Source of the DNA: Rhodoferax sediminis
Lineage (GTDB): Bacteria; Pseudomonadota; Gammaproteobacteria; Burkholderiales; Burkholderiaceae_C
DNA: 64,000 bases
Direction of reading: 5' to 3'
Assembly: GCF_006970865.1 (NCBI RefSeq)
Contig: NZ_CP035503.1
Coordinates: 2,555,001 to 2,619,000 of the forward strand
In this document: piece after piece, positions 4,228 through 62,590 of the stretch
Numbering within the stretch: position 1 is the stretch's first letter
How the letters are laid out: the number at the start of each line of letters is the position of its first letter
Position numbers and translations under genes: made by a program
Notes under the pieces: model-generated
The model's input: only the letters and a program-made list of their open reading frames with translations
The model's database searches: none
Told to the model about the DNA's origin: nothing

Positions 4228-5940
4228 ATGCCATTGCCACCCGCCCCCACCAAGCGCGCCGCCCTGCTGGCGCCCGAAGCGTACGACGCGCCGGCCAGAA
4301 CTTCCGCCCGCGCATCGCGGAAACCACAGGCCGACGACGAGGGCGCGCGGGGGGACGGCAACGCGCAGATACTGGCAACGGCCGAGCGCATGCCCGGCAG
4401 CGGCACAGCGGCGGAGCATCCGGCCGCCTTCCAGCCGAAGTTTCGCACTGAAACGGCCAGACGCCCTGAACAGCCAAGCGCACCCAGCTACAAAAAAAGT
4501 AGCGCCGCAGTGCCTCAAGCGGACGTCAAGCCGAGAAAGACAAAGGCTACCGGGCCAAGCAAGCTGTTTGTGCTGGACACCAACGTGCTGCTGCACGACC
4601 CGATGTGCCTGTTCCGTTTCGAAGAGCACGACCTCTTCCTGCCGATGATCGTGCTGGAGGAACTCGACGGCCACAAGAAGGGCATGACCGAGGTGGCGCG
4701 CAACGCGCGCCAGACCAGCCGCTCGCTCGACGCGCTGGCCGGCACGCAGGGAGCCGATTTCGGCAACGGCCTGAAGCTCGACGCCACGGGCCACCGCGAA
4801 GCCGGCGGCAAGCTGTTCTTCCAGACCCAGACGCTGGACTACACCCTGCCCATCAGCCTGCCCCAAGGCAAGGCCGACAACCAGATCCTGGGGGTGGTGG
4901 AGGCCTTGCGAAAGCAGTATGCGCCGCGCGAGGTCGTGCTGGTCTCCAAGGACATCAACATGCGGGTCAAGGCGCGCGCGCTGGGCCTGCCGACCGACGA
5001 CTACCAGAACGACAAGACACTGGATGACAGCGACCTGCTGTACTCCGGCTCACTGGCGCTGCCGCTGGATTTCTGGGCCAAGCATGGCAAGACCATGGAG
5101 AGCTGGCAAAGCGGCAGCTATACGTTCTACCGCATCAGCGGACCGATCGTGCCGAACCTGCTGATCAACCAGTTCGTCTACTTCGAGGCGCCGGGCGAGC
5201 CCAGCCTGTACGCCCGTGTCACCGAGATCCGCGCCAAGACGGCGGTGCTCAAGACGCTGAAGGATTACAACCACCTGAAAAATGCGGTCTGGGGCGTGAC
5301 CACACGCAACCGCGAGCAGAACTTCGCGATGAACGTGCTGATGGACCCGGAAGTGGACTTTGTGACGCTCACGGGGAACGCCGGCACCGGCAAGACGCTG
5401 ATGGCACTGGCCTCGGGCCTGACCCAGGTGCTGGACGACCGCCGCTATACGGAGATCATCATGACCCGCGCGACCGTGAGCGTGGGCGAGGACATTGGCT
5501 TCCTGCCGGGCACCGAAGAGGAAAAGATGGGCCCGTGGATGGGCGCGCTGGACGACAACCTGGAAGTGCTGGCCAAGACCGAGACCACCTCGGGCGAATG
5601 GGGCCGCGCCGCCACCAACGAGCTGATCCGCTCGCGCATCAAGATCAAGAGCATGAACTTCATGCGCGGGCGCACCTTCTTGAACAAGTACGTCATCATC
5701 GACGAGGCGCAGAACCTGACGCCCAAACAGATGAAGACGCTGATCACCCGCGCCGGCCCCGGCACCAAGATCATCTGCATGGGCAACCTGGCGCAGATCG
5801 ACACACCGTACCTGACCGAGGGCTCCTCGGGGCTGACGTTTGCCGTCGACAAGTTCAAGGGCTGGCCGCACGGCGGGCACATCACGCTGGCGCGCGGCGA
5901 GCGCTCGCGGCTGGCCGACTTTGCCAGCGAAGTGCTATAG
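4228..5940 (+). CDS. PIN domain / PhoH-type ATPase
   Basis: A protein of 570 residues with a PIN nuclease-like domain (FVLDTNVLLHDP from about 113) followed by a PhoH ATPase domain. The latter has Walker A GNAGTGKT near 382-389 and Walker B VIIDEAQN near 488. This PhoH2/YlaK-like architecture is linked to RNA metabolism; the substrate is unknown. The first roughly 110 residues are a low-complexity, charged tail. That tail contains a copy of the dispersed repeat (4455-4499) coding for residues 76-91. The start at 4228 is the first in-frame ATG after the bcp terminator. A later start cannot be excluded because the tail is not conserved. Confidence 0.9.
   Translation: MPLPPAPTKRAALLAPEAYDAPARTSARASRKPQADDEGARGDGNAQILATAERMPGSGTAAEHPAAFQPKFRTETARRPEQPSAPSYKKSSAAVPQADVKPRKTKATGPSKLFVLDTNVLLHDPMCLFRFEEHDLFLPMIVLEELDGHKKGMTEVARNARQTSRSLDALAGTQGADFGNGLKLDATGHREAGGKLFFQTQTLDYTLPISLPQGKADNQILGVVEALRKQYAPREVVLVSKDINMRVKARALGLPTDDYQNDKTLDDSDLLYSGSLALPLDFWAKHGKTMESWQSGSYTFYRISGPIVPNLLINQFVYFEAPGEPSLYARVTEIRAKTAVLKTLKDYNHLKNAVWGVTTRNREQNFAMNVLMDPEVDFVTLTGNAGTGKTLMALASGLTQVLDDRRYTEIIMTRATVSVGEDIGFLPGTEEEKMGPWMGALDDNLEVLAKTETTSGEWGRAATNELIRSRIKIKSMNFMRGRTFLNKYVIIDEAQNLTPKQMKTLITRAGPGTKIICMGNLAQIDTPYLTEGSSGLTFAVDKFKGWPHGGHITLARGERSRLADFASEVL
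4455..4499 (-). repeat. Dispersed 25-nt-spaced repeat, copy 1 (inside phoH-like gene)
   Basis: On the minus strand this reads GTAGC, then exactly 20 nt, then GGGCGTCTGGCC, preceded by a T run. It matches the skeleton shared by eight other copies in the window. It sits in the variable N-terminal linker of the PIN-PhoH protein and does not disturb the frame. Confidence 0.65.
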
Positions 5941-5998
5941 GAACAGTAGCTTGTTGCGAAGAACGGGCGCCGGCTACAGGCACTTTTCTCTTAAAAAT
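5941..5998 (+). repeat. Dispersed repeat, copy 2 (intergenic, phoH-dnaB)
   Basis: GTAGC at 5946-5950, 20 nt, then CGGCTACAGGC from 5971, then a T-rich and A-rich tail. This is the only strong copy that is not inside a gene. It lies between the convergent phoH-like gene and dnaB, a gap of only 50 bp that it fills. Confidence 0.65.
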
Positions 5999-15167: not shown

Positions 15168-16502
15168 ATGCAAAAAAAATTCAAACTGATCCCGCTGTGC
15201 GCGGCACTAACGCTCCTGGGCCTGCACGGCGCGGCTTCGGCCCAGACCAGCACCCAGCAAGCGCTGATGCAAAAACTGGAACAAATGAGCGCCGAGATCG
15301 ACAAGCTCAAGGCCGAGGTGACGCAGCTCAAGTCGGCGCAGAACCAAACCGACGCCACGGCCCAGCGGGCCAGCCAGACCGCCGCACAGGCGCAGACCGA
15401 AGCCCAGAGCGCGGCGGCCAGCGTGGCCGGCACTGGCCTGAGAGCGCCGGGCGAGCCCGCCACGGTCCTCACCGGCTACGGCGAGATCAACTACAACCAC
15501 CCGACGAAAAACGCGTCGGCCACCCAGGCCGACCTGCGCCGTGCCGTCATCGGCATCCAGCACCGCTTTGACGACAAGACCAAGTTCGTCGGCGAGTTCG
15601 AGTGGGAGCATGCCGTGACCTCGGCCAGCGACCGTGGCGAGACCGAAGTGGAGCAGGCCTACATCGAACACCAGCTGCACCCCACGCTGGCGGTGCGCGG
15701 CGGGCTGTTCCTGGTGCCACTGGGTCTGCTCAACGAAAACCACGAGCCCACCGCCTACTACGGCGTGGAGCGCAATTTCGTCGAAACCGCCATCATTCCC
15801 AGCACCTGGCGCGAAGGCGGCGCCATGCTGATCGGCACCACCGAGCAGGGCCTGACCTGGAAGGCCGGCGTGTCCACCGGCTTCGACCTGAACAAATGGG
15901 ACGCCACCTCACCCGACGGCAAGGCGTCGCCCCTGGGCAGCGTGCACCAGGAACTGCAACTGGCGAAGGCGCGCAACCTGAGCCTGTTCGGCGCACTCGA
16001 CTGGCGCGGCGTGCCCGGCCTGCTGGTCGGCGGCGGACTGTTTAGCGGCAAGGCCGGCCAGGGCCTGGCCGCCAACAATCCGACCGTTACCGTGTGGGAC
16101 CTGCACACGCGCTGGACGCCGGGCAAGTGGGACCTGGCCGCGGTCTACGCCAGCGGCTCGATCAGCGGCGCCGGACCGCTCAACGCGGCCTTTGCGGCGA
16201 CCGACCCGACCCCGATTCCCTCGAAGTTCGACGGCATGTACGTGCAGGCCGCCTACACGCTGTGGAGCAGCGGCGACTACCAGCTCAAGCCGTTTGCGCG
16301 CTACGAGCGCTTCAACACTGCCAAGGCCTTTGCTGCCTTCCCGCTCGGGCTGGAGCGCCCGGCCGACCCCTACGAGCGGGTCGCCACGCTCGGCGCCAGC
16401 TTCTACCTGTCGCCCTCGGTGGTCATCAAGGCCGACTACCAGCGCTTTGCGGTGAACAGCCTGAACAACCGCTTCAATCTCGGCCTGGGCTGGTCGTTCT
16501 GA
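15168..16502 (+). CDS. Outer-membrane porin with N-terminal coiled coil
   Basis: A 444-residue outer-membrane protein with a signal peptide (cleavage near ASAQ, residue 24-26). A Gln/Ala-rich coiled coil follows (about 28-85), then a beta-barrel of alternating strands ending in GLGWSF with the terminal Phe typical of porins. It resembles phosphate-selective porin O/P-type channels, but the substrate is unknown. A Fur-like box upstream and the overlap with the FMN-binding gene (TGATG) suggest a role in iron-responsive envelope function. The coiled coil may form a trimer or bind peptidoglycan. Confidence 0.8.
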   Translation: MQKKFKLIPLCAALTLLGLHGAASAQTSTQQALMQKLEQMSAEIDKLKAEVTQLKSAQNQTDATAQRASQTAAQAQTEAQSAAASVAGTGLRAPGEPATVLTGYGEINYNHPTKNASATQADLRRAVIGIQHRFDDKTKFVGEFEWEHAVTSASDRGETEVEQAYIEHQLHPTLAVRGGLFLVPLGLLNENHEPTAYYGVERNFVETAIIPSTWREGGAMLIGTTEQGLTWKAGVSTGFDLNKWDATSPDGKASPLGSVHQELQLAKARNLSLFGALDWRGVPGLLVGGGLFSGKAGQGLAANNPTVTVWDLHTRWTPGKWDLAAVYASGSISGAGPLNAAFAATDPTPIPSKFDGMYVQAAYTLWSSGDYQLKPFARYERFNTAKAFAAFPLGLERPADPYERVATLGASFYLSPSVVIKADYQRFAVNSLNNRFNLGLGWSF

Positions 16503-17083
16503 TGCAAAAGAACGTCTTAGCCCTTGCCCCGCATGCACTGACAGCTACGCTTTTGATAGTTGGTCTGGGCGCCTCCGGGTCCGCCTTCGCGGTCGACTAC
16601 CTGACGGCGGCGCAGGCCCGTCAGCTCCTGTTCCCGGCTGCCACGCAGTGGCAGGACAAGGACTACGCGCTCAGCGCCGAGCAGTTGCAGGCCGTGGCCC
16701 GCGCCGGCCACGTGGCGGCGCGCTCGGCCGGCTGGCATCTGGTTCATGCCTTCGATGCCCAGCACAAATACCTGGGCAGCATGGTGGTCGACCACGTAGT
16801 GGGCAAGTTCGAGCTCATCAGCTACGCCGTCGGGGTGGACGCCGCCGGCGCGATCGCCGGGGTGGAGGTGCTGAGCTACCGCGAGAGCCACGGCTCGGAA
16901 ATCCGGCTGCCGGCCTGGCGTCGCCAGTTCGCCGGCAAGACCGTGGCCCAGCCGATCGAGATCGGCGACGACATCGCGCTGATCAGCGGCGCCACGCTGT
17001 CGTGCACCCATGTGACCGACGGCGTGCGGCGCATCGTGGCCGTGCTGTCGGTGTTGCGCGAGGGCGGCTTACTGCCCGCCTGA
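16502..17083 (+). CDS. Periplasmic FMN-binding (flavinylated) protein
   Basis: A 193-residue protein with a signal peptide (hydrophobic core ALTATLLIVGLG, cleavage near AFA, residue 30). It is followed by one FMN-binding domain of the NqrC/RnfG type. The flavinylation motif is DDIALISGATLS with SGAT at residues 162-165, so Thr165 should carry FMN through a phosphoester bond. The gene starts one base into the porin stop codon and is followed 20 bp later by apbE, the enzyme that would attach the flavin. The signal-peptide core overlaps a dispersed repeat (16511-16560). Likely role: periplasmic electron transfer, perhaps iron reduction (inference). Confidence 0.85.
   Translation: MQKNVLALAPHALTATLLIVGLGASGSAFAVDYLTAAQARQLLFPAATQWQDKDYALSAEQLQAVARAGHVAARSAGWHLVHAFDAQHKYLGSMVVDHVVGKFELISYAVGVDAAGAIAGVEVLSYRESHGSEIRLPAWRRQFAGKTVAQPIEIGDDIALISGATLSCTHVTDGVRRIVAVLSVLREGGLLPA
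16511..16560 (-). repeat. Dispersed repeat, copy 3 (in the signal peptide of the FMN-binding protein)
   Basis: On the minus strand: GTAGC (16548-16544), 20 nt, then GGGCTAAGACG from 16523, with CTATCAAAA upstream. It codes for about residues 4-19, the hydrophobic core of the signal peptide. Confidence 0.6.
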
Positions 17084-20702: not shown

Positions 20703-22654
20703 ACACCGCCGCTCATGTGTCACCAGGCATCGCCCTGCGTATCGCCCTGGTCGGCAATCCGAACTGCGGCAAGACAGCGCTGTTCAATCTGCTGACCGGC
20801 GCGCGCCAGAAAGTCGCCAACTACGCGGGTGTGACGATCGAGCGCAAAGAGGGGTTTACGCGTCTGCCCGACGGCCGCGAAGTCTCCATCCTGGATCTGC
20901 CCGGCGCCTACAGCCTGAACCCGGCCAGCACCGACGAGGCCGTGACGCACGACGTGGTGATGGGCCGGCGCGCCGGAGAGACCCGGCCCGATGGCATCAT
21001 CGCCGTGGTGGACGCCACCAATCTGCGCATGAACCTGCGCCTGGTGCTGCAGTTGCGCGCGCTGGGCCGCCCCATGGTGCTGGCGCTGAACATGATCGAC
21101 GTGGCACGCGCGCAGGGCCTGCAGATCGACGTCGCCCGGCTATCAAGCGAACTGGGCATGCCCGTGGTGGAGACGGTGGCGGTCAAGGCCAACTGGATCA
21201 GCAACTGGCTGGGCCGCTCCCGTGACAATGGCCGCGAAGCCCTGCTGCAAGCGGCGCAGGCCGCATTCCTGACCGACGTTCACGATAGTTTAAGGCCTCA
21301 AGCCCATGCCCAGCCTGCGCAAGTAGCTATTAAAAATGCAGCACACCCGCCTTTGACACCGGCGGCGCTGCAAGCCCAGGTCAGGTCGATTCTGGCGGCT
21401 GCGGTGCCCAATGCCGGCCAGATCAAGCGCTTCAACCACGGCATTGATTCGGTCGTGATGCACCCGGTGCTGGGCCTGCTCCTGCTGGGCGTGGTGCTGT
21501 TCCTGATCTTCCAGGCGGTGTTTTCCTGGGCCAATATGCCGATGGAGCTGATCCAGAGCGGGGTCACCGGCGTGGGCACCCTGATCCAGCGGCACATGCC
21601 GCCCGGCATGCTGCAGAGCCTGCTGGTGGACGGTGTGGTGGCGGGCGTGGGCAGCGTGCTGGTATTTTTGCCGCAGATCCTGATTCTGTTCTTCTTCATC
21701 CTGCTGCTCGAAGACTCGGGCTACCTGCCGCGCGCGGCCTTCCTGCTGGACAACCTGATGGGCAAGGTCGGCCTGTCGGGCCGCGCCTTCATCCCCCTTC
21801 TGTCGAGCTTCGCCTGCGCCATTCCGGGCATCATGGCCACGCGCACCATCCCCAACTGGCGCGACCGGCTGTCCACCATCATGATTGCGCCCTTGATGAC
21901 CTGCTCGGCGCGCCTGCCGCTGTACGCGCTCTTGATCAGCGCCTTTGTGCCAAAACGCGAGGTCGGCGGGTTCAACCTGCAGGGCATCACCCTGTTCGTG
22001 CTCTATGCCGCCGGCATCGTGTCGGCCATGGGCGTCGCCTGGGTCTTCAAGCGCATCTGGCTCAAGAGCAACTACCAGCCGCTAATGCTCGAGTTGCCGC
22101 CGTACCGCTTGCCCAACCTGCGCAATCTGGTGCTGGGCCTGTGGCAGCGCGCGCAAATCTTCCTGCAGCGTGTCGGGACCATCATTTTCTCGCTGATGGT
22201 GGTGCTGTGGTTTCTGTCGACCTTCCCCAGCCCGCCCGCGGGCGTGACGGGCCCGGCCATCCAGTACAGCTTTGCCGGCATGATTGGCCGGGCGCTGGAG
22301 GTGGTGTTTGCGCCGATCGGTTTCAACTGGCAGATTTCCATCGCGCTGGTGCCGGGCATGGCGGCGCGCGAAGTGGCGGTGGGCGCGCTCGGCACGGTGT
22401 ACGCGCTGTCCGCCACCGGCGAAGAGACGGCCAAGGCGCTGGTGCCGCTGATCGTGCAGAGCTGGTCGCTGGCCACGGCGTACTCGCTGCTGGCCTGGTA
22501 CGTGTTTGCGCCGCAGTGCATTTCGACACTGGCCGTGGTCAAGCGTGAAACCAACTCATGGCGCTACCCGCTCTTGATGGCCGGGTATCTGTTTGCGCTG
22601 GCTTATGCGGCCTCGTTTATCACCTACCGCGTCGCGCTGGCGCTGACCTCATGA
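20699..22654 (+). CDS. feoB: Ferrous iron transporter B
   Basis: A 651-residue inner-membrane Fe(II) importer with an N-terminal G domain: G1 GNPNCGKT (about 18-25), the G2 region NYAGVTIE, G3 DLPGAYSL and G4 NMID. It is followed by a membrane domain with two Gate motifs (ARLPLYALLISAF; CISTLAVVKRE). The start at 20699 overlaps the feoA stop; an earlier in-frame ATG at 20675 lies inside feoA. The cytoplasmic linker at residues about 196-214 is coded by a copy of the dispersed repeat. It is shorter than the E. coli protein, as in many betaproteobacteria. Confidence 0.96.
   Translation: MNTAAHVSPGIALRIALVGNPNCGKTALFNLLTGARQKVANYAGVTIERKEGFTRLPDGREVSILDLPGAYSLNPASTDEAVTHDVVMGRRAGETRPDGIIAVVDATNLRMNLRLVLQLRALGRPMVLALNMIDVARAQGLQIDVARLSSELGMPVVETVAVKANWISNWLGRSRDNGREALLQAAQAAFLTDVHDSLRPQAHAQPAQVAIKNAAHPPLTPAALQAQVRSILAAAVPNAGQIKRFNHGIDSVVMHPVLGLLLLGVVLFLIFQAVFSWANMPMELIQSGVTGVGTLIQRHMPPGMLQSLLVDGVVAGVGSVLVFLPQILILFFFILLLEDSGYLPRAAFLLDNLMGKVGLSGRAFIPLLSSFACAIPGIMATRTIPNWRDRLSTIMIAPLMTCSARLPLYALLISAFVPKREVGGFNLQGITLFVLYAAGIVSAMGVAWVFKRIWLKSNYQPLMLELPPYRLPNLRNLVLGLWQRAQIFLQRVGTIIFSLMVVLWFLSTFPSPPAGVTGPAIQYSFAGMIGRALEVVFAPIGFNWQISIALVPGMAAREVAVGALGTVYALSATGEETAKALVPLIVQSWSLATAYSLLAWYVFAPQCISTLAVVKRETNSWRYPLLMAGYLFALAYAASFITYRVALALTS
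21285..21340 (-). repeat. Dispersed repeat, copy 4 (inside feoB)
   Basis: On the minus strand: TTTTTAATAGC, 20 nt, then GGGCTTGAGGCC (21305-21294). It falls in the linker between the G domain and the membrane domain and keeps the frame. It is one of the two best-conserved copies. Confidence 0.75.
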
Positions 22655-39919: not shown

Positions 39920-39963
39920 ATAGAGGCTGTCTGGGCCCGAACTGTCGCGGGCCGTGCATCTGC

Positions 39964-40173: not shown

Positions 40174-40218
40174 TTAGACTTATCCACATCCGAGCAGCCC
40201 GGCTACTTCACCAAGGGT

Positions 40219-40267
40219 GGGGCAAAATTAGATGAAAAACCGGGGCCAAGATTCAGTGAAAATCAAT
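40219..40267. repeat. Two imperfect 23-bp direct repeats, possible IS21-like terminus
   Basis: GGGGCAAAATTAGATGAAAA (from 40219) and GGGGCCAAGATTCAGTGAAAA (from 40243) repeat each other. Multiple terminal repeats of this form (GGCC-AATT-CA-TGAAAAT) are typical of IS21-family ends. No transposase gene is present, so this would be a solo end. It sits 10 bp from the nadA stop. Confidence 0.35.
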
Positions 40268-40277
40268 ACTGATAGAC

Positions 40278-41387: not shown

Positions 41388-42274
41388 AACGGACTCTCAA
41401 ATCGTACAGAAAAGTCAATGGCTTTGACGTCTTTTGTCAAAGCCCCAACTGAGATACGGTCAACCCCGGTCTGCGCCAGCGCGCGTACGCTCTCCAGCAT
41501 CACGCCGCCCGAGATTTCAAGAACGGCACGCCCGACTCCTTTGGCCGCACTCATGGCTTCGTTAAGGCGCACAGCTTCTTGAACCATTAGTGCATCCATG
41601 TTGTCAAGCAGCACCATCGCGGCACCGGCGTTCAAGGCCTCCTTCAACTGCTCCAATGTTTCCACTTCGATTTCAATAAAGCTCGCCTGTGCCGCGACCG
41701 TTGCGGCGCGTGCCAGCACAGGAGCGATGCCGCCAGCGGCAGCAATGTGGTTCTCCTTGATCAGCACGGCGTCGAACAGGCCTATCCGGTGGTTAAGACC
41801 GCCACCCGTTCGGACCGCGTACTTTTGCGCCAGTCTCAGGCCCGGTAGCGTTTTGCGGGTGTCTACGATGCGGGCTCCAGTACCCCGAACCATCGCTACG
41901 TACAAAGCCGTCTTGCTGGCGACGGCGCTCAGCATCTGTAAAAAATTCAATGCGGTACGCTCGACGCTCAGGAGCGCCTGAGCCTGACCCTCAATATCAA
42001 GCACGACCTGGTTTGCCACACAGGACTCTCCCTCTTGCACGTGCCAGGTTAAGCGGGCTTGTGGATCCAGCGCCCGCACGGCGGCTTCTACCCACGGGGC
42101 ACCGCACAGCACTGCCGGCTCACGGACCAACACACGAGCGCGGGCGCGGCGGTCAGTTTGAATCAAGCCAGCTGTAAGGTCACCAGAGCCGATGTCTTCT
42201 GCCAAAGCACGGGCCACGTCATCTCGGGCCAATGCCCGGATTGCATCAGCCGAGAAGTCAAATAATGGGGTCAT
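41372..42274 (-). CDS. nadC: Nicotinate-nucleotide pyrophosphorylase (carboxylating)
   Basis: A 300-residue enzyme that turns quinolinate and PRPP into nicotinate mononucleotide. Visible stretches are [16 protein letters not shown] near 22, [15 protein letters not shown] near 104, [20 protein letters not shown] near 135 and [20 protein letters not shown]. It starts 60 bp from the divergent nadB, so the gap must hold both promoters. Confidence 0.96.
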
Positions 42275-42334
42275 GTTGTAAGAATGAAGTCAGGAAATAG
42301 GTAAACTGCCGGCATTTTGTCACATTGGCGGCAC

Positions 42335-43981: not shown

Positions 43982-44034
43982 CATCGGCGCGCCTGAATTG
44001 ACGTGTTGTGACCCGTGAAGGATGCAGGCGCACC

Positions 44035-45795
44035 GTGCAAACGCTGATCGATTTTGTCGCCACCCGAGGCGATCGGGGCTCGGCGCTGCGCGCGGCATTC
44101 GGCGCGCCACGCGAGGTGCTGGCCGCACACACCGTGGCCCAGGTGGTGCCGGTGCTGCAGGCCGTGGACGCCATGGCCCGGCAGGGCCGCTGGTGCGTCG
44201 GGTACCTGCGCTACGAGGCCGCCCCCGCCTTCGACACCGCGCTTGCGGTGCATGGCGGCAGCGATGGCCCGCTGGCGTGGTTCGGGGTACACGATGCCGC
44301 TCAGCCGTGGCCGCCCATGGACATCGGCGCCGGCGCGCCCGGCGCCGAGTGGCAGAGCGACTTGCCGCGCACCACGTTCGAGCAGCGCATGGCGGAGATT
44401 CACCAGGCCATCGCTGCAGGCCAGCTGTACCAGGTCAACTACACCGCGCCGCTGCAGGCCGAGTTTCGGGGCGATGCGCGGGCCTGGTTCATGAGGCTGC
44501 GCCAAGCGCAGCCCCATGGGTATGCCGCGTTCATCGACAGCGGAACAGAGCAGGTGTTGTCCGTGTCGCCGGAACTGTTCTTTGACTGGCGCGATGGCCG
44601 CATCCTGGCGCGACCCATGAAGGGCACGGCACCGCGCGGCGCCACCGCGGCAGATGACGAAGCGCTGGCGGCTCGACTTGCCGCGTCGCCGAAGGAGCGC
44701 GCCGAGAACGTCATGATTGTCGACCTGATCCGCAACGACCTGTCGCGCATTGCCAAGCCTTTTTCCGTTCGCGTGCCCCGGCTGTTCCACCTTGAGGCGC
44801 TGCCCACGGTGTGGCAGATGACTTCCGATGTCGAGGCGCTCACCCGGGACGGGACCACACTGGCCAACGTGTTCACGGCCTTATTTCCTTGCGGCTCGAT
44901 CACCGGTGCACCCAAGGTGCAGGCCATGCGCATGATCTGCGATCTGGAGCCGCAACCGCGCGGCGTGTATTGCGGCGCGGTGGGCGTTGTCCGCCCGGGC
45001 GGGCATGCGACGTTCAACGTGGCGATCCGCACCGTGACCCTGCGCGGCACGGCGGCGAGCTGCGGTATCGGCAGCGGTATCACGGCCGATGCGCAGGCCG
45101 AGGGCGAATGGCAGGAGTGGCGCCACAAGCGTGCCTTTCTCGAACGCGCAAGCCAGCCGTTCGAATTGCTCGAAACCCTGGCACTGGAGGGCGGTGCCCT
45201 GCGCGACGCGCCGGCCCATCTGGCGCGCATGGCGGATGCGGCCGCGCATTTTGCCTACCCATGGGACGCAGCGCATGTCGCGGGCCGCTTGCGGCAACTG
45301 GTCGATGCGCACCTCCAAGGGCGCTGGCGGGTGCGCCTGCGGCTCGATGCCGGCGGACAGGTCCAGGCCGAGGCCTACGCGCTGGACCTGACGCCGACCC
45401 CAGTTCGCTTAAGACTGGCCACGAGCGCGCTCGAAGAGGCGGACAGTGAGTTCGTGCGCTTCAAGACCACGCGGCGTGCGCATTACGACGCGTTTGCCCC
45501 CAGCGAGCCTGACGTCTTCGACACCCTGCTGTGGAACCGGCGTGGAGAGATCACCGAGTGCACCCGCGGCAACGTGGCCCTGCTGCTGGATGGACGCTGG
45601 GTCACACCGGCGCTGCACTGCGGCCTGCTGGGCGGGATCGGGCGGGCCCGCTGGCTGCGCGAAGGGCGGTTGGCCGAAGCCGTGGTGCGGGTAGACGAGC
45701 TGCAGCGCGTGCAGGCGCTGGCCTTCGTGAACAGCCTGCGCGGATGGGTGGATGCCGTACTCGATGAACACCCACCGTCCGGTCGGAGAGCCTGA
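44035..45795 (+). CDS. pabB: Aminodeoxychorismate synthase component I fused to 4-amino-4-deoxychorismate lyase
   Basis: A fusion of about 586 residues for p-aminobenzoate (folate) synthesis. Residues 1-370 are PabB: QLYQVNYTAPLQAEF, PMKGTAPRG, RAENVMIVDLIRNDLSRIA and GSITGAPKVQAMRMICDLE. From about 380 a class IV aminotransferase fold (PabC-like) follows, with the likely PLP lysine in FVRFKTTRRAHYDAF and RGEITECTRGNVALLLDGRW. The usual EGxxxN motif of PabC reads ECTRGN here. The start is taken as GTG at 44035 (MQTLIDFV); another GTG at 44008 is possible. Confidence 0.9.
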   Translation: MQTLIDFVATRGDRGSALRAAFGAPREVLAAHTVAQVVPVLQAVDAMARQGRWCVGYLRYEAAPAFDTALAVHGGSDGPLAWFGVHDAAQPWPPMDIGAGAPGAEWQSDLPRTTFEQRMAEIHQAIAAGQLYQVNYTAPLQAEFRGDARAWFMRLRQAQPHGYAAFIDSGTEQVLSVSPELFFDWRDGRILARPMKGTAPRGATAADDEALAARLAASPKERAENVMIVDLIRNDLSRIAKPFSVRVPRLFHLEALPTVWQMTSDVEALTRDGTTLANVFTALFPCGSITGAPKVQAMRMICDLEPQPRGVYCGAVGVVRPGGHATFNVAIRTVTLRGTAASCGIGSGITADAQAEGEWQEWRHKRAFLERASQPFELLETLALEGGALRDAPAHLARMADAAAHFAYPWDAAHVAGRLRQLVDAHLQGRWRVRLRLDAGGQVQAEAYALDLTPTPVRLRLATSALEEADSEFVRFKTTRRAHYDAFAPSEPDVFDTLLWNRRGEITECTRGNVALLLDGRWVTPALHCGLLGGIGRARWLREGRLAEAVVRVDELQRVQALAFVNSLRGWVDAVLDEHPPSGRRA

Positions 45796-45812
45796 ACAGG
45801 CTGATTGAATCC

Positions 45813-46553
45813 ATGGGACTGGCTTATCGAAGCGGCCTGCGCCGTTGGCTGAAGGTGCCCGGCAGTCTGAGCCAGCACCTGGCCCGGCTCGGCCAGCGCT
45901 TCGAGGTGCAGGTGCTGAGTCAGCGTGTTGCGCCCCTGCGCCGGCATGAACAACAGGCGCTGGGCCTGCCGCGGAGCGGACTGACGGTGGTGCGCGAGGT
46001 CCTGTTGCGGGTCGATGGCGAACCGTTGGTATGGGCCCGCTCGGCCCTGCACCAGTCGGCCCTGGCCGGTCCCTGGAAAGCCTTGAAGGGTCTGGGCAGC
46101 CGCCCGCTGGCGCATTTGCTCTATGACGACCCCCGCATCCGGCGTAGCACCCTGCAGCCGCGTCGCCTGTCCCGCCATGGTCATACCCGACGGCACCTGC
46201 AGCGCCAGTGGCGCCAGGCCACCGGGTCGGATCCCTCGGCGCAGATGCTCTGGTCGCGCAATTCGATATTCAGTCGCCAGGGCGCCTTGCTGCGGGTGAT
46301 GGAGACGTTCGTGCCGCATATGAAGGCGCTGGCGCGGCCCGGAGCCGGGGATTGCCCGCCACAAGGCGGGCAGCAATTGCAACCAAATAGACTCTCTAAA
46401 TGTCCCCAATGTGACACGATTCGTAGTATGCTGCGCCGCAACATAACCGGCCAGAGGAAACCCCGTGTTCCGTACCCTGCTGAAATCCAAGATCCACCGG
46501 GTCGCCGTGACCCATTGCGAATTGCATTACGAAGGCTCGTGCGCCATCGATGA
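45813..46553 (+). CDS. ubiC: Chorismate lyase UbiC-like with aberrant C-terminal tail
   Basis: The first roughly 180 residues fit UbiC, which makes 4-hydroxybenzoate for ubiquinone: [20 protein letters not shown], then [30 protein letters not shown] and [20 protein letters not shown]. The family normally ends near residue 180. Here no stop occurs until 46553, so about 65 unrelated residues follow and the frame overlaps panD by 89 bp. The original stop is probably lost. A hairpin (46354-46371) lies where the gene should end. It follows pabB by 17 bp; both enzymes use chorismate. Confidence 0.8.
46354..46371 (+). other. Hairpin between the ubiC core and panD
   Basis: GCCCGCC (46354-46360), loop ACAA, GGCGGGC (46365-46371): a perfect 7-bp stem without a T run. 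It may be an old terminator or a regulatory hairpin upstream of panD. Confidence 0.45.
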
Positions 46554-46845
46554 GAACCTGCTCGAGGCGGCCAACATCGCCGAGAACGAACAAATCCATA
46601 TCTGGAACATCAACAACGGCGAGCGTTTCGTCACCTACGCCATCAAGGGCCAGCGCGGCACCGGCATGATCTCGGTCAACGGCTCGGCGGCGCGCCGCGC
46701 CGCCATGGGCGACTTGATCATCATCGCCTCGTTCGCCCAGGTGCACGAAGACCAGATGGCCACGCACAAGCCGCAACTGGTGTTTGTGGACGAGGCCAAC
46801 CGCCAGATCGGCGCGCGCCAACACGTTCCAACGCAGCAGCTTTGA
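46465..46845 (+). CDS. panD: Aspartate 1-decarboxylase
   Basis: A 126-residue pyruvoyl enzyme that makes beta-alanine for pantothenate. The self-cleavage site is G24-S25 in [28 protein letters not shown] and [19 protein letters not shown] follow. The start codon is GTG at 46465 with AGAGGAA upstream. A promoter-like TAGTAT lies at 46425-46430. It is followed by bioA after one base and so heads the biotin-pantothenate run. Confidence 0.95.
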
Positions 46846-46846
46846 G

Positions 46847-48172
46847 ATGAATGCTTCCCTGGCCGCGCGCAGTCTGCGCAGCGTGTGGCACCCCTGCACG
46901 CAGATGAAGCTGCACGAGGCGCAGCCGCCGATCGCGATCGCGCACGCCTCGGGACCCTGGCTGCACGACGTGGACGGCCGGCGCTACCTTGACGGCATCA
47001 GTTCCTGGTGGGTCAACCTGTTCGGCCATAGCCATCCGCACATCCAGGCCGCACTGGCCGACCAGTTGGAGCGGCTCGACCATGTGATGCTCGCCGGCTT
47101 CACCCATGCACCGGTGGTGGAACTGTCCGAGCGCCTGGCCGCGCTGACCGGCCTGGGCCACGCGTTTTATGGCAGCGACGGCGCCTCGGCCACCGAGATC
47201 GCACTCAAGATGAGCGCGCATTTCTGGCGCAACAGCGGCCGGCCGGCCAAGAACCGCTTCATTGGGTTGGCCGGTGGCTACCACGGTGAAACCGTGGGTG
47301 CGCTGGCCGTGACCGACATCGCGATCTTTCGCGAAGCCTATGCGCCGCTGGTGCGCCTGGCCGCTACCGTGCCCAGCCCCGACGCGCGCGGCGCGCGTCT
47401 CGGCGAGAGCGCGTTTGAGGTGGCCCGGCGCAGCGCCGCGGCGCTGCAGGCCTGGCTGGCCGAGCACCACGAAGAGACCGCGGCGCTGATCGTCGAGCCC
47501 CTGGTGCAGTGCGCGGCCGGCATGGCCATGCATGACCCTGAGTACCTGCGCCTGGCGCGCGCGCTGTGCGACCGCTACGAGGTGCATCTGGTGGTGGACG
47601 AAATCGCCACCGGCTTCGGGCGCACCGGCACGATGTTCGCGCACCAGCAGGCCGGCATCCGGCCCGACCTCATCTGCCTGTCCAAGGGACTGACCGGCGG
47701 CACTTTGCCGCTGTCGGCCGTGCTGACCACCGACGCGGTCTACGAGGCCTTTTACGACGACCAGCTGGCGCGCGGCTTCCTGCATTCGCACTCGTACACC
47801 GGCAACCCGCTAGCTTGCCGCGCTGCGCTGGCCACGCTCGAGATCTTTGAACAGCAAGACGTGCTGGCGCGCAACGCGGTGCTGGCGCGTGCGCTCGATG
47901 AAGCGTTCGCACCGCTGACGAGTCATCCTCGCGTGCGCCATGCGCGCCACCTCGGCATGATCTGGGCCTGGGATGTAGAAACCGCCCTGCCCGATTTCGC
48001 GAGCCGATACCACCGGCACGCGCTGGCGCACGGCCTGCTGCTGCGCCCGATCGGCCGCACGATCTACGCCATGCCGCCCTATGTGCTGGATGCCGAGGCC
48101 GTGCAATGCCTCGCGCAAGGCGCGCTGGCCGCGCTTGAAGCTACCCTGGCTGAAGAGACGCCCGCATCATGA
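46847..48172 (+). CDS. bioA: Adenosylmethionine-8-amino-7-oxononanoate aminotransferase
   Basis: A 441-residue PLP enzyme that aminates KAPA to DAPA with SAM as amino donor. Motifs are RYLDGISSWWVNLFGHSHP near residue 45, GFYG-like AFYGSDGASATEIALKM near 106, VVDEIATGFGRTGTMFAHQQ and the PLP lysine in ICLSKGLTGGTLPLSAV. The start at 46847 is two bases after the panD stop. Its end overlaps bioD (ATGA). Confidence 0.95.
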   Translation: MNASLAARSLRSVWHPCTQMKLHEAQPPIAIAHASGPWLHDVDGRRYLDGISSWWVNLFGHSHPHIQAALADQLERLDHVMLAGFTHAPVVELSERLAALTGLGHAFYGSDGASATEIALKMSAHFWRNSGRPAKNRFIGLAGGYHGETVGALAVTDIAIFREAYAPLVRLAATVPSPDARGARLGESAFEVARRSAAALQAWLAEHHEETAALIVEPLVQCAAGMAMHDPEYLRLARALCDRYEVHLVVDEIATGFGRTGTMFAHQQAGIRPDLICLSKGLTGGTLPLSAVLTTDAVYEAFYDDQLARGFLHSHSYTGNPLACRAALATLEIFEQQDVLARNAVLARALDEAFAPLTSHPRVRHARHLGMIWAWDVETALPDFASRYHRHALAHGLLLRPIGRTIYAMPPYVLDAEAVQCLAQGALAALEATLAEETPAS

Positions 48173-48828
48173 ATTCCTACTTCATTACCGGCACCGACAC
48201 CGGCGTCGGCAAGACCCTGGTGTCGGCCGCGCTGCTGCACACGCTGGCCAGGCGCCACCCGCGCGTGGTCGGCATGAAGCCCGTGGCCGCCGGCAGGGTG
48301 CGCCATGGCGATGGCTGGGCCAGCGAAGACGCGCTGGCGCTGCGCGCAGCCTCCACTGTCGAAGTACCGCCCGAACTGGACAACCCCGTCCTGCTGCCCG
48401 ACCCGCTGTCGCCGCACATCGCGGCCGAACGCGCCGGTGTGCGCATCGACATCGAGCATCTGGTGTCCTGCTACCGCGAGCTCGCACGCCGCGCCGATGC
48501 CGTGGTGGTGGAAGGCGCGGGCGGTTTCCACGTGCCGCTGTCGGACAGCAGCACCGGCGCCGATCTTGCGCAGGCGCTGGCCCTGCCCGTGGTGCTGGTG
48601 GTGGGCCTGCGCCTGGGTTGCCTGAATCACGCCCTGCTGACTGCCGAAGCCATCCGCGCGCGCGGCCTCCTGCTCGCCGGCTGGGTGGCCAACCGCATCG
48701 ACCCTGCAATGCAGGCGCAAGAAGAGAATATCGCCTGGCTGCAGCGCCAACTCGCCGCGCCGCTGCTGGCCGACATCGCCTATCAGGACGCCCCTGACCC
48801 GCGGGCCATCGCCCTCCACCTGCCATGA
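48169..48828 (+). CDS. bioD: Dethiobiotin synthetase
   Basis: A 219-residue ATP-dependent enzyme that closes the ureido ring of dethiobiotin. The P-loop is [15 protein letters not shown] at the N-terminus. KPVAAG and [13 protein letters not shown] follow. It overlaps bioA by 4 bp and bioF by 4 bp, so translation of the bioADF part is coupled. Confidence 0.95.
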
Positions 48829-50072
48829 CCCTGAACACCCACCCTTCCTGGATCGACGAATTCCCGGCGCGCATCGCCGAGCTGGACCGCGCCCACCTGC
48901 GCCGCCGCCGCCGCGTGGTCGTGCCCGAAAGCGGGGCCCGCCTGCAGGTCGATGGCCAGTCCATGCTCGCGTTTTGCAGCAACGATTACCTGGGCCTGGC
49001 CAGCCATCCCGCGCTGGTGCAGGCCGCCTGTGCCGGCGCCCACGAGTTCGGCGTGGGCGCCGGCGCCTCGCCGCTGGTCAGCGGCCACAGCGCGGCCAAC
49101 GAGGCGCTCGAGCAGGCGCTGGCCCGCTTTGCCGAACTGCCGCGTGCCCTGTATTTTTACGCCGGCTACGCCACCAACATCGGCATCGTGCCTGCGCTGG
49201 TCGCCGAAGGCGACGCGCTGTTCTCCGACGCGCTGAATCACGCCTGCCTGATCGACGGCGCCCGCTTGTCGCGCGCGCACATCCACCGCTATGCGCATGC
49301 CGACCTGGGCGCGCTGGACGCGGCACTCAGCCAAAGTCCGGCGCGGCGCAAGCTCGTGATCAGCGACGCCGTGTTCAGCATGGACGGCGACATCGCCGAC
49401 ATTCCCGCGCTGCTGGCGCTGTGCGAGCGGCACGACGCGCTGCTGCTGCTCGACGATGCGCACGGTTTCGGCGTGCTGGGTCCCGAAGGCCGCGGCAGCC
49501 TCGCGAAGTTTGGCCTGACCGGGGCCCGGGCCTCGCGCCGCGTGCTCTACATGGCCACGCTGGGCAAGGCCGCCGGTGTGGCGGGCGCCTTTGTGGCCGG
49601 TGACGATGCGCTGGTCGAATGGCTGCTGCAAAAAACCCGCAGCTACATCTTTGCCACGGCCGCGCCGGCGCTGCTGGCCAGCGCCCTGCGCGCAAGCCTG
49701 CGCCTGATCGAAACCGAACAGTGGCGCCGCGACCACCTGAGCCGGCTGATCGCACGGCTGCGCGACGGCCTGCAGCCGATCCTGCGCGGCACGCCCTGGC
49801 GGCTCGGCGATTCCGTCACCGCCATCCAGGCGCTGGTGATCGGCCCCAACGATGAGGCCCTGGCCGTAATGGAAGGCCTGCGCGAGCGCGGCCTGTGGGT
49901 GCCGGCGATCCGCCCGCCCACCGTGCCCGAGGGCACGGCCCGGCTGCGCATTGCCCTGTCGGCCGCCCACAGCGAGGACGACGTGGACCGCCTGATCCAG
50001 GGACTCGCCGGGCTGGCGCCGAAATCGCAGCTTGAGCGCCCGTCCGCAGCGCTCGAACCCACCCTTGCCTGA
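48825..50072 (+). CDS. bioF: 8-amino-7-oxononanoate synthase
   Basis: A 415-residue PLP enzyme that condenses pimeloyl-ACP or -CoA with alanine. Visible are [15 protein letters not shown] near 50, [20 protein letters not shown] near 75, [20 protein letters not shown] and the PLP lysine in [15 protein letters not shown]. It is slightly longer than usual through its C-terminal tail. No bioC or bioH for pimeloyl supply is in the window. Confidence 0.95.
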
Positions 50073-50100
50073 GAATAATCCCACTTAACTGGAGACCACA

Positions 50101-51129
50101 ATGCCCGCCACCCTTGAACACCCCGTGACCCTGCACCGCCCGCCGCGCCCCCCGGTTGATCCCGTCGCACCGGCTACTCCACGCTGGCGCGTGGAGGACG
50201 TGCAGGCGCTGTTCGAGCTGCCGTTCCCGGAGTTGCTGCACCGCGCGCAGACGATTCACCGTGCGAACTTCGACCCGACGCTCGTCGAGTTCGCGACGCT
50301 GTTGTCGGTCAAGACCGGCGGCTGCCCCGAGGACTGCGGCTACTGCCCGCAGGCGGCCCGTTACGACACCGGGGTGCAAGCCTCCAAGCTGATGGAGCCG
50401 GCCGAGGTGCTTGTCGCCGCGCAGCGCGCCAAGGACGCCGGCGCCACGCGCTTTTGCATGGGCGCGGCCTGGCGCGCGCCGAAGGATCGCGATATCGAGA
50501 AAGTGGCCGAACTGGTGGCCACCGTGAAGGCGCTGGGCCTGGAGACCTGCGCCACGCTGGGCATGCTCGAAGACGGCCACGCCGAGACGCTGCGCGATGC
50601 GGGACTGGACTACTACAACCACAACCTCGACAGTGCGCCCGACTTCTACGGCGACATCATCAGCACGCGTGACTACCAGGACCGGCTCGACACCCTGGGC
50701 CGCGTGCGCGGCGCGGGCGTGAAGGTCTGCTGCGGGGGCATCGTGGGCATGGGCGAATCGCACACCCAGCGCGCCGGCCTGATCGCACAGCTGGCCAACC
50801 TCGCGCCCTACCCCGAGTCGGTGCCCATCAACCACCTGGTGCGCGTGCAGGGCACGCCGCTGGCCGAGCAGGCGCCGCTGGATCCGTTCGAGTTCGTGCG
50901 CACGATTGCGGTGGCGCGCATCACCATGCCGCTGGCGCGCGTGCGCCTGTCCGCCGGGCGCCAGCAGATGGGCGACGCCATCCAGGCCCTGTGCTTCCTG
51001 GCCGGCGCCAATTCCATCTTCTACGGCGACAAGCTGCTGACCACCGGCAACCCCGACACCCAGGCCGACCTGGATCTGCTGCAACGCCTGGGCTTGAAGC
51101 AGGGCCAGCCCGTTCCCCTGAGCCAGTAA
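50101..51129 (+). CDS. bioB: Biotin synthase
   Basis: A 342-residue radical-SAM enzyme that inserts sulfur into dethiobiotin. The CxxxCxxC motif is in [19 protein letters not shown] near residue 75. [29 protein letters not shown] and ICAGG-type [12 protein letters not shown] follow. A ribosome-binding site (GGAG) precedes 50101. The first 35 residues are a Pro-rich extension. Confidence 0.96.
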
Positions 51130-51137
51130 GCCCTCGC

Positions 51138-52828
<1,691 letters not shown>

Positions 52829-52835
52829 TTGGGAA

Positions 52836-53072
52836 ATGACGTGGAACGACGCCCGACGGCAAGCCGCTGAAGACGACGCAGACTGGACCCCAGAGGAGGA
52901 GGAAAAGCGTATAGAAAAGATGACCGCCGCCCTTCGGAAGGCCCTTGGAGACATGGCAGACCGCCAGCCGGACATTTTCAGGCAGGCCCTTGAGCGGTTC
53001 AGTCCGCAACTTGCCGAGGCTCTGGGAGAGGGCTACGTGGAGGAGTACAGAGAGGCCCATGAGGATTCCTGA
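52836..53072 (+). CDS. Small acidic hypothetical protein
   Basis: A 78-residue protein rich in Glu/Asp/Arg, probably all helical (DWTPEEEEKRIEKMTAALRK, then PDIFRQALERFSPQLAEALG). It begins eight bases after panC, but its composition and codon use look unlike the biosynthetic genes. I do not recognise a family. It may be accessory, together with the next gene. Confidence 0.5.
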   Translation: MTWNDARRQAAEDDADWTPEEEEKRIEKMTAALRKALGDMADRQPDIFRQALERFSPQLAEALGEGYVEEYREAHEDS

Positions 53073-53137
53073 AGGCCCCGCCATCCAATCCTTAGGGGTG
53101 CATTTGCACAGGCTCGCCGAGGTTCGCCCGGAATCCC

Positions 53138-53926
53138 CTACTCCTTGCCCACCGTAAATCGCCGGAGAACTTCGTTGACTTTACCTCCAACGTGGTCCAC
53201 TTTCTCACCTTTAGCGAAAGTGACCGCCATCGTGGTCATCATGAAGATCGTTGCATTCATCATCACGATGACCTCAAGGTCTTCTTCGCAAGCCTTCAAG
53301 GCTTCCGGCTGCGAGTACTCGAACATCTCCAAGTCCGTGTATGGACCGCCATGAACGAAAGAGGAATAGAGCGCGTAGGCGGGCACGATTGCCGACAAGA
53401 AAGGCGTTTTCCCAGATACAAAACGGAGGCCCTCTCCCGCCAGATAGCGAAGAATGTCTCGGTACTTGAACTTCCCGGAAAAATCCTTGAGTTGCTTTTT
53501 GCTCAAGTGCGCGGCCTCGGGATAGAGCTTCTCTACCGCATCCGCATAGTTCATGACGCCATCATTTCCCACCAAAGCATCTGCGAGTTTCAAAGCACCA
53601 AGGTACTCCATTGCCTCAACTGCGCCGCAATAGCTGTAGTACTCAGTGCCCGCCTCATCAGTTTTGTCTTTTGTCATCCGCGCCCAGAGGTACGTGAAGC
53701 GCAGATAGTGCTCGCAGAATGAGCGGTACAACACCCGGAAGGCATAGGGATTGTTGCTGTCCACCGTGTCAAACATCCCGGTTTTGAGCGAGTTCCCCTT
53801 TGCACAGAACATTGCCATAGCCCGGAGCGTCTGTGGGTACGCGGTCTGCAACCCGTCACGGAAAACCTCTGGGCCGTGTTTTTCAACAATGGCGAAAATC
53901 TGATCGTCTGCGTCGCGGTAGTCCAT
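53138..53926 (-). CDS. Hypothetical protein, DUF5677-like
   Basis: A 262-residue, mostly helical protein with VLYRSFCEHYLRFTYLWARM near residue 66 and YALYSSFVHGGPYTDLEMFE near 190. Conserved His/Arg/Ser in such helices recall DUF5677-type proteins found in defence-like and accessory loci. The assignment is tentative. The gene is clearly less GC-rich than its surroundings and lies between panC and tRNA-His, which suggests horizontal gain. Confidence 0.6.
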   Translation of the reverse strand: MDYRDADDQIFAIVEKHGPEVFRDGLQTAYPQTLRAMAMFCAKGNSLKTGMFDTVDSNNPYAFRVLYRSFCEHYLRFTYLWARMTKDKTDEAGTEYYSYCGAVEAMEYLGALKLADALVGNDGVMNYADAVEKLYPEAAHLSKKQLKDFSGKFKYRDILRYLAGEGLRFVSGKTPFLSAIVPAYALYSSFVHGGPYTDLEMFEYSQPEALKACEEDLEVIVMMNATIFMMTTMAVTFAKGEKVDHVGGKVNEVLRRFTVGKE

Positions 53927-53962
53927 AACAAACCTTGGTCAGACCGCCCCGGTGCGGAGGCG

Positions 53963-53984
53963 AAAAAAAAGCCCTCGAAAGGAC
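53963..53984 (-). terminator. Terminator downstream of tRNA-His
   Basis: On the minus strand GTCCT, loop TTCG, AGGGC form a short stem (53984-53971), followed by eight T. It ends the ppiD-tRNA-His transcript before the accessory gene. Confidence 0.7.
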
Positions 53985-54021
53985 CTTTTCATGCACTCCC
54001 ACCGACTGGAAAGCCGCATGG

Positions 54022-54045
54022 ATACTGGGGTTTGAATACTGGGGT
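54022..54045. repeat. Short direct repeat at the 3' end of tRNA-His
   Basis: ATACTGGGGT occurs at 54022-54031 and again at 54036-54045, the second copy overlapping the CCA end of tRNA-His. It could be a small integration scar or tandem duplication. Confidence 0.4.
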
Positions 54046-54116
54046 GGCTGATGGGGCTCGAACCCACGACAACAGGAATCACAATCCTGGACTCTACCAA
54101 CTGAGCTACAGCCACC
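54040..54116 (-). tRNA. tRNA-His (GTG)
   Basis: The minus strand folds as a tRNA: acceptor GTGGCTG / CAGCCAC with the extra G at -1 (54116) opposite C73, as required for tRNA-His. The D arm is AGCTCAGTTGGTAGAG, the anticodon loop is ATTGTGAT with GTG, and the T loop is GGTTCGAGCC. The CCA is encoded. It lies 27 bp after the ppiD stop. Confidence 0.96.
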
Positions 54117-59377: not shown

Positions 59378-59428
59378 GGGTGCGATTGTGTCATGGCCGG
59401 CGATCGCCGACGGGCCGGCCCGCGAGCC

Positions 59429-61432: not shown

Positions 61433-61507
61433 ACCACCGTATTGTCGTTCCTGCAGCCAGGCTGACACAGCGCCGGGGCTGGAATAGGCCGGGTCACAAT
61501 CGCCCCC

Positions 61508-62590
61508 ATGCTGTGGGACATCTTCTGCAAGGTCATCGACAACTTTGGCGACATCGGCGCGTGCTGGCGGCTCAGCGCCGACCTGGCCGCACGCGGCGAA
61601 CAGGTGCGGCTGTGGGTGGATGACGCCTCGGCCCTGCGCTGGATGGCACCGGGCGGCTGCCCGGGCGTCACGGTGCTGCCCTGGGCGCAGTCGCTTCAGC
61701 CCACCGGGCGGCCACCGGCCGACGTGCTGGTGGAGGCCTTCGGCTGCGAGATCGCTCCTGAGTTCATAGCTGCATGCGTAGATGGGGTAAGGGCTACAGG
61801 CCGAAAACCCGTATGGATCAACCTCGAATACCTGTCCGCGGAGAGCTTCGTCGAGCGCGCCCACGGCCTGCCCTCGCCGGTTATGAGCGGTCCGGGCGCG
61901 GGCCTGACCAAGTATTTTTTCTACCCCGGCTTCACGGCGCACACCGGCGGGCTGCTGCGCGAACCTGGCCTGGCCCACCGCCAGCTTGAATTCAACCGCG
62001 CCACATGGCTGGCGCGACTGGGCGTCGACCCTCAAGGCGAGCGGCTGGTGTCACTGTTTTGTTACGAACCCCCGGCCCTGGAGGGCCTGCTCGATCAACT
62101 GGCAGACGGCGCGCAGCCCACCCGGCTGCTGGTCACGCCGGGACGCGCGGCAGCGGCAACGAGGGCCGCGATTGAGCATAAAAACAGGCTTCAGCCCTTA
62201 TGGAACAAGCGCAAGCAGCTATCAATTTCGTATTTACCGGCCCTCAGTCAGGTTGACTTCGACCACCTGCTGTGGGCCTGCGACCTCAACTTTGTGCGCG
62301 GCGAGGATTCGCTGGTACGCGCCCTGTGGGCCGGCAAGCCCTTCATCTGGCAGATCTACCCGCAGGACGACGCGGTCCACCACGGCAAGCTGGAGGCATT
62401 TCTGGATTGGCTGCAGGCACCCGCGTCGCTGCGGCAATTCCACCAGGTCTGGAACGGCGCCAGCGCCGCCGGCCTGCCACCCATCGACGGCGCCGCCTGG
62501 GGCCCGATGGCAGTGGCGGCACGTGAGCGGCTGCTGGCGCAGGACGACCTGACCCACCAGTTGCAGCAGTTCGTCCTGAAAAACCGTTAA
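61508..62590 (+). CDS. earP: EF-P arginine rhamnosyltransferase EarP
   Basis: A 360-residue GT-B glycosyltransferase that uses dTDP-rhamnose to modify Arg32 of EF-P. The N-terminus is [20 protein letters not shown] with the catalytic Asp residues D11 and D15. [16 protein letters not shown] lies near 101, and [20 protein letters not shown], followed by [14 protein letters not shown], forms the dTDP-binding part. Two copies of the dispersed repeat lie inside it in frame: residues about 83-101 and 223-241. efp follows 108 bp downstream. Confidence 0.94.
61754..61810 (+). repeat. Dispersed repeat, copy 8 (first in earP)
   Basis: GCTCCTGAGTTCATAGC, 20 nt, then GGGCTACAGGCC from 61791, then GAAAA. 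It is in sense orientation within earP, just before the conserved PVWINLEYL strand. Confidence 0.75.
62176..62230 (-). repeat. Dispersed repeat, copy 9 (second in earP)
   Basis: On the minus strand: CGAAATTGATAGC, 20 nt, then GGGCTGAAGCCTG (62197-62185), then TTTTTAT. It is in the opposite orientation to copy 8, about 400 bp away in the same gene, and one of the best-conserved copies. Confidence 0.75.

Follow-up and report, generated by a model that had tools for sequence, protein, structure and literature searches.

The 64,000-nt stretch of the Rhodoferax sediminis chromosome analysed in this study (contig NZ_CP035503.1, positions 2,555,001 to 2,619,000; hereafter the window) carries copies of a dispersed motif of about 66 bp, some between genes and some within protein-coding genes, including two in earP. 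These copies and the earP gene are listed below, with positions counted from the first letter of the window. G002 and G004 are close relatives whose genomes are 92-95% identical to that of R. sediminis, G020 belongs to another genus, and the scores are those of the matrix described below.

1749..1815, minus strand: degenerate tenth copy (score 15.0), overlapping the end of gene 344-1783 and the spacer behind it; at the same place in G002, G004 and G001
4439..4505, minus strand: copy in the N-terminal part of a phoH-like/PIN gene (PF02562, PF13638); in G002 and G004, absent from G001
5932..5998, plus strand: copy that takes up the whole 50-bp spacer separating the convergent phoH-like and dnaB genes; in G002, G004 and G001
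16496..16562, minus strand: copy at a gene junction; the surrounding 3.4-kb segment has no alignment to the fetched parts of G002 and G004
21278..21344, minus strand: copy in feoB between the GTPase and Gate domains; in G002, G004, G006 and G001, decayed in G005
33234..33300, plus strand: copy in rlmD, antisense; matrix score 52.2 in G020
35273..35339, plus strand: copy in the N-terminal part of rpoS, before region 1.2, antisense; in G002 and G004, weakly in G020, absent from G001, G003, G005 and G006
36980..37046, minus strand: copy at the 5' end of pcm; in G002, G004, G006, G005, G003 and G001, absent from G020
61508..62590, plus strand: earP, host gene of two copies (PF10093, E 1e-121)
61752..61818, plus strand: EarP site 1, codons 82-104, sense; matrix match with synonymous-codon constraint
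62170..62236, minus strand: EarP site 2, codons 221-243, antisense; G001 lacks it without a difference in length

An earlier note on this DNA had described nine sites with (A/G)TAGC and, at constant spacing after it, GGGC or a variant of that word. All nine coordinates proved exact, with both orientations represented, and the exact spacing stood; the proposed length of ~50 bp did not, the conserved unit being about 66-67 bp. This unit runs from -14 to +52 around (A/G)TAGC, is gapless in 36 aligned copies, and has the approximate consensus TNGCTAYNAAATTNATAGCTRNNTGYGCAGANNNGGYAAGGGCTACAGGCCNATTTGNYTCAAAAN. Its contact patches are, in order, GCTAY, an A/T tract, RTAGC, GYGC, AAGGGCT, AGGCC, a second A/T tract and AAA. 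With a scoring matrix trained on 27 copies, all from outside the window, the nine sites score 21.1-63.6 and the weaker tenth copy at 1801 (minus strand) 15.0, compared with a maximum of 0.92 over 30 dinucleotide shuffles of the window and -8.3 for the reversed window. A sequence-only covariance model, whose training set included all nine window sites, recovered them at E <= 6e-8 and gave no other window match below E = 0.17. A chance origin of the repeat family is ruled out by the shuffled and reversed controls. The copies do use several reading frames, as had been noted, and gene calls place six of the nine, not eight, in genes: the sites at 5946, 16548 and 37032 lie in or at spacers, and the pcm copy counts as coding only with an upstream start of the open reading frame.

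A genome-wide profile scan, which the earlier note had proposed, showed that the family is real, dispersed and present in hundreds of copies. A 37-base pattern occurs 46 times in the 4.39-Mb genome, and the same pattern written backward 0 times. Of 2114 candidates, 150 were scored with a model (R1) and every one of them matched, so that the genome holds at least 150 copies. Applied to the 300 kb surrounding the window, the matrix found 47 copies, and 0 after the sequence was reversed; two 200-kb stretches chosen for having few top hits gave 18 and 0. From these counts the genome-wide number is probably 400-700. The 150 top hits are divided evenly between the strands (73 plus, 77 minus) with no orientation bias by replichore (p = 0.34), they are not significantly uneven along the chromosome (chi-square p = 0.11), and the spacing between copies is random (coefficient of variation 0.95 vs 0.97 expected).

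We then examined the anatomy of the motif in 133 non-redundant copies. Seventeen position pairs exceed the maximum of three shuffles, all of them no more than 4 bases apart; the linked positions exchange AAA for TTT at 39-41 and around -5 to -3, and AG, AT, TT or CC at 14-15. No long-range base pairs and no base-pair covariation were detected among these copies. Two-fold symmetry and internal repeats were rejected as well, since comparison of the matrix with itself was negative at every offset tried and comparison with its own reverse complement was negative at offsets from -40 to 40. A structured RNA or transcription element is hardly credible: although GCTAY and RTAGC could, by eye, pair as a small hairpin in single copies, RNAalifold returned only two pairs with an energy of -0.29, an Rfam scan matched none of the copies (two tRNAs being its sole matches in the window), and the copies lie on both strands relative to genes (eight same and eight opposite in tandem spacers, eight same and 11 opposite inside genes). 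Judged from the alignments, the anatomy is in keeping with a protein site that is contacted at several points and read by shape; an RNA or a set of copy subfamilies fits less well.

A nucleoid-associated or chromosome-organising complex may wrap ~66 bp of DNA at hundreds of places, the sites being kept by selection on chromosome structure. The length of the motif, its repeated contact patches, the AAA/TTT exchange, as in indirect readout, and the absence of significant unevenness among the top hits (p = 0.11, as above) all speak for this explanation. Its large information excess speaks against it: the motif holds 45-51 bits, a figure somewhat inflated because copies were chosen by score, compared with the 13.6-14.4 bits needed to address 690-400 genomic sites, and such an excess would be expected of copied or driven sequences.

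It was also asked whether the copies are inserted or overprinted. For 27 of the 47 copies in the 300 kb, both flanks are present in the fetched stretches of G002 and/or G004, and 25 of these 27 sites are occupied, with the flanks exactly 67 bases apart in G002, G004 or both at 23 of the 25. The two testable sites not counted as occupied are 2552194, which is unalignable, and 2634441, where a weak match (10.4) has a different spacing. Farther relatives vary in which sites they have: of nine testable window sites G001 retains six and lacks three, and its earP carries, in place of site 2, a homologous coding segment of the same length that has no motif. Such static sites in close relatives agree with a chromosome-organising complex. 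Single sites are dispensable, as the three missing from G001 show, and this, combined with random spacing, implies that per-base selection spread over hundreds of sites would be very weak, which is a point against the complex.

Comparison with solved homologues gave the same picture inside genes. A 66-bp insertion would add 22 residues, whereas length differences at six in-gene copies are about +4, 0, +8, -2, 0 and +4 residues, none of which is near 22; no clean in-frame insertion, which the earlier note had suggested looking for, was seen at any of them. The solved EarP of P. aeruginosa is gapless through site 2 and 4 residues shorter at site 1, and the solved RumA of E. coli is 8 residues shorter than the rlmD product at the motif. 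An acetolactate-synthase-like protein differs from its solved homologue by 4- and 6-residue gaps in opposite directions (net about 2 residues shorter), a LivF-like ATPase copy aligns without gaps, and DnaG, whose copy lies within a poorly conserved linker, is 4 residues longer. For FeoB the solved match stops short of the site, and one further protein had no solved homologue. At these six alignable in-gene sites, the alignments show the motif overprinted on an existing protein code and not inserted into it. The earlier note had read the family as a mobile or recombining element tolerated as a coding insertion; the insertion part is not supported, given the 25 occupied sites and the six solved homologues. 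Spread by recombination of homologous DNA may occur and is part of the best reading below.

An ancient mobile element, similar to a miniature inverted-repeat transposable element (MITE), a repetitive extragenic palindromic (REP) sequence or a Rickettsia palindromic element (RPE), inserted in the family ancestor and since kept or decaying, could account for hundreds of copies in both orientations, for copies that fill whole spacers and for information beyond the needs of a binding site. Insertion is disfavoured by the orthologous sites and solved homologues just described (none of the six alignable in-gene sites with 22 extra residues). The lack of self-complementarity and of long-range linkage marking subfamilies, the strong DNA-level constraint on earP and the 0 copies in 200 kb of acquired DNA (both described below) also argue against this origin, as does the distribution of the transposase domain Y1_Tnp, which is found in 24 of 26 motif-bearing and 20 of 26 non-bearing genomes and does not track the motif. 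Such an origin is quite improbable.

Constraint on the DNA itself was assessed in earP, where bearers were defined by a matrix score > 12. In the respective motif columns, isoleucine is encoded by ATA in 55 of 57 cases (6% in the rest of the gene), proline by CCT in 52 of 55 (11%), leucine by CTA in 46 of 57 (3%) and arginine by AGG in 29 of 31 (4%), in proteins that share these motif-dictated codons while being only ~60% identical. Synonymous resampling was applied to 43 EarP loci picked independently, by their holding a copy elsewhere, and the best-scoring place per gene was scored, which was the expected place in 43 of 43. At each site, 42 of the 43 loci scored above all 100 resamplings, with mean scores of 43.5 vs -0.5 and 44.5 vs 5.8 at the two sites. 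Since synonymous codon choice follows the motif despite residue homology, the motif in EarP is constrained at the DNA level. The earlier note had held that the same residues in distant orthologs would reveal chance; this rule does not apply to EarP, whose residues are homologous and whose codon choice is constrained all the same.

Across relatives, identity at informative vs uninformative positions is 0.941 vs 0.924 in G002 (17 sites), 0.936 vs 0.836 in G004 (21 sites), 0.723 vs 0.550 in G001 (5 sites), 0.644 vs 0.475 in G005 (4 sites), 0.923 vs 0.550 in G020 (1 site) and 0.788 vs 0.800 in G006 (2 sites), in a comparison biased toward constraint by the score-based selection of copies from the own genome. 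In 20 motif-free EarP genes, the place orthologous to site 2 ranks among the best-scoring 2% of the gene in 17 cases, and the place orthologous to site 1 does so in 10. In four of them (L202, L204, L201 and L161), the best-scoring place of the whole gene is the orthologous motif site. These high-scoring places are possibly decayed relics, and protein homology alone could also explain them.

The predominance of copies inside genes, which the earlier note had stressed, is a feature of the window only. Of the 47 copies in the 300 kb, 19 lie inside predicted genes, 14 partly and 14 between genes, whereas random placement would give 84%, 9% and 7%; thus 28 of 47 are not fully in genes, compared with 16% at random. 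The 26 copies centred on spacers are densest in convergent spacers (8 in 3.7 kb, compared with 16 in 21.0 kb of tandem and 2 in 8.3 kb of divergent spacer), and spacer copies outscore the others (median 44 vs 32, p = 0.024).

The motif is also missing from acquired DNA. The stretch at 3.19-3.39 Mb (3190001-3390000) has 0 copies, and its middle 20 kb gave only short matches of 63-81% identity in seven relatives. Six of ten scanned proteins from this region have Pfam matches, including a serine recombinase and catabolic enzymes, and the region is probably a large acquired catabolic island. Its genes include those for a large serine recombinase (L242:13598-15673), AMP-binding proteins, a GMC oxidoreductase and an aldehyde dehydrogenase. 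The window itself also contains a motif-free segment:

39667..54039, no strand: segment with no copies and without alignment to the fetched stretches of G002 and G004, adjoining tRNA-His 54040-54115

This 14.4-kb segment is a probable genomic island. Beyond the tRNA-His junction, where collinearity ends, the final ~180 kb of the fetched G002 contig contain just one copy. Four unaligned segments together hold one copy in 33 kb, compared with 28 over ~121 kb of the collinear span in which they lie. The motif is therefore located in the core genome and lacking from acquired DNA.

The earlier note's mention of similar motifs in Comamonadaceae was borne out. Among 40 relatives, 16 match: seven of seven in the genus (the own genome included), nine of 17 family genomes outside the genus and none of 16 from other families. 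In a survey of 299 sampled family genomes with stricter filters and at most 17 candidates scored per genome, 102 match, spread over 57 of 141 genera, and in an order-wide sample 5 of 300 genomes match, every one within the family. In a set of 80 named EarP loci, the best 80 of 376, the motif turns up under the labels Rhodoferax, Polaromonas, Simplicispira, Hylemonella and Comamonas; bearers are over-represented in this set because two of the six peptide search patterns overlap the motif. No copy was found in EarP loci of Variovorax (7), Ramlibacter (4) or Caenimonas (1), some of these loci being short, and Ottowia gave one weak match (13.7) outside earP. On an EarP tree from which the motif columns were excluded, presence of the motif requires at least five changes, of which well-supported branches force only one, and an old origin followed by several losses is one simple reading of this tree. 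If a chromosome-organising complex were the reader, loss of its protein would explain wholesale absence in some genera. Copies labelled Rhodoferax and Polaromonas differ slightly (e.g., TT vs AG at positions 14-15), a difference that is not pressed because each group has only 13-27 non-redundant copies. In the titles and abstract openings of the open-licence PMC literature we found no description of the motif, which may exist elsewhere, and the sole exact match of a 14-mer there was a paper on human PAD4.

Taken together, overprinting, the dispensability of single sites, the information excess and the core-genome bias resemble the behaviour of uptake sequences and favour biased transfer of self-DNA. 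We propose, at a probability of about 0.4, that the motif is a distributed self-DNA signal kept site by site through biased DNA transfer, most likely uptake in transformation, a proposal that draws on analogy with known systems. The ~66-bp motif would mark the lineage's own chromosome as a recognition sequence; motif-bearing fragments would be taken up or retained better during natural transformation; and recombination would then rewrite the motif over homologous alleles that lack it or have lost it. A transfer step would read the motif, and the reader may belong to the type IV pilus or be some other uptake protein.

DNA uptake sequences (DUS) are described as occurring in many copies at permissive core-genome places, absent from recently acquired genes and conserved (PMC2397512), DUS and uptake signal sequences (USS) as having no general orientation bias, and 65% of USS as lying in open reading frames compared with about 86% coding sequence in H. 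influenzae (PMC2346458), while the 17-mer extended USS has a core followed by A/T-rich positions (PMC12616744). Mutation-selection balance or molecular drive is considered to maintain uptake sequences (PMC2397512, PMC2346458, PMC12616744). The motif resembles the DUS of Neisseriaceae in its many copies, its permissive core places, its absence from acquired DNA and its lack of orientation bias, and the USS of Pasteurellaceae in its copies inside genes, fewer than expected there, and in its A/T-rich positions. It differs from DUS, which have 10-12 nt and the receptor ComP, in being 66 bp long with no known reader or uptake data, and from USS (9-17 nt) in being about four times longer, at 45-51 bits. 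The short core of 9-12 nt common to DUS and USS is missing, the information being spread over ~66 positions; for this reason, and as the functional likeness rests on analogy, we do not class the motif as an uptake sequence.

Several observations weigh against uptake as the explanation. Known uptake sequences, as described in those sources, have about 9-12 nt, extended to 17, and the motif is far longer. The sites are very static at 92-95% identity (25 of 27 occupied) with no clear recent gain, in contrast to the recent, singly occurring DUS that have been reported. Excess conservation in close relatives is modest, with divergence at informative vs uninformative positions of 6.4% vs 16.4% in G004, 5.9% vs 7.6% in G002 and no excess in G006, and the test of DNA constraint covers a single gene, earP. 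The presence of comEC in all 30 bearers tested agrees with uptake, but with 27 of 30 non-bearers also having it this competence gene does not tell the two groups apart, and GspH-type pilins are not discriminating either (26 of 26 vs 23 of 26), a non-bearer being a genome with no match at E <= 1e-5 among its 17 best candidates. No reader protein was found by presence and absence among the candidates screened (ComEC, GspH pilins and Y1_Tnp), and no reader or uptake assay is known for the motif.

Given the length of the motif, its static sites and the failure of ComEC, GspH and Y1_Tnp to track it, a chromosome-organising complex is retained as the main, if somewhat unlikely, alternative; the candidate proteins searched for were these three. 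Another transfer or repair drive, such as the packaging signal of a gene transfer agent, a mobilisation signal, or a recombination or repair hotspot copied by gene conversion, would share the overprinting, core-genome bias and information excess of an uptake drive. Chi-type sites show orientation bias, which the motif lacks, and the motif hardly occurs in viral contigs: two of them match a 21-base pattern searched exactly, although this strict pattern would miss most copies, chromosomal ones included. A drive of this kind is unlikely.

If biased self-DNA transfer is correct, which we hold only tentatively, the motif would constitute a third natural bacterial system for marking self-DNA, outside Neisseriaceae and Pasteurellaceae: a 66-bp multi-contact site forming a genome-wide second code overprinted on proteins, probably old in Comamonadaceae and missing from whole genera. 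An overprinted signal of 45-51 bits kept over large family distances calls for either a strong drive by transfer or a large complex that reads DNA, and to our knowledge neither is known in these bacteria. The motif distorts both the protein sequence and the codon choice of its host genes, which matters for work on annotation, codon usage and ratios of nonsynonymous to synonymous substitution rates, and it can be used as a marker separating core from acquired DNA and as a handle for isolating its reader.

Among other repeat families, RPEs are palindromes inserted into protein genes in frame. The motif, too, lies in frame within such genes, but it is not palindromic and is not inserted at the tested sites. 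REP elements with their REP-associated tyrosine transposases (RAYTs) occur in many short copies, often at the 3' ends of genes. The motif is like them in its many short copies and unlike them in having no palindrome, in its gene-internal copies and in the failure of Y1_Tnp to track it. A Y1_Tnp protein encoded at 803619-803945 in the own genome was found in 44 of 52 tested family genomes, with or without the motif. This family protein, which we take to be RAYT-like, is mostly single-copy, with an open frame of ~230-300 aa and no evident partner repeat. In one relative, G021, Y1_Tnp gave 20 matches; several have identical scores and some are fragmented, which looks like a recent burst of the IS200/IS605 type.

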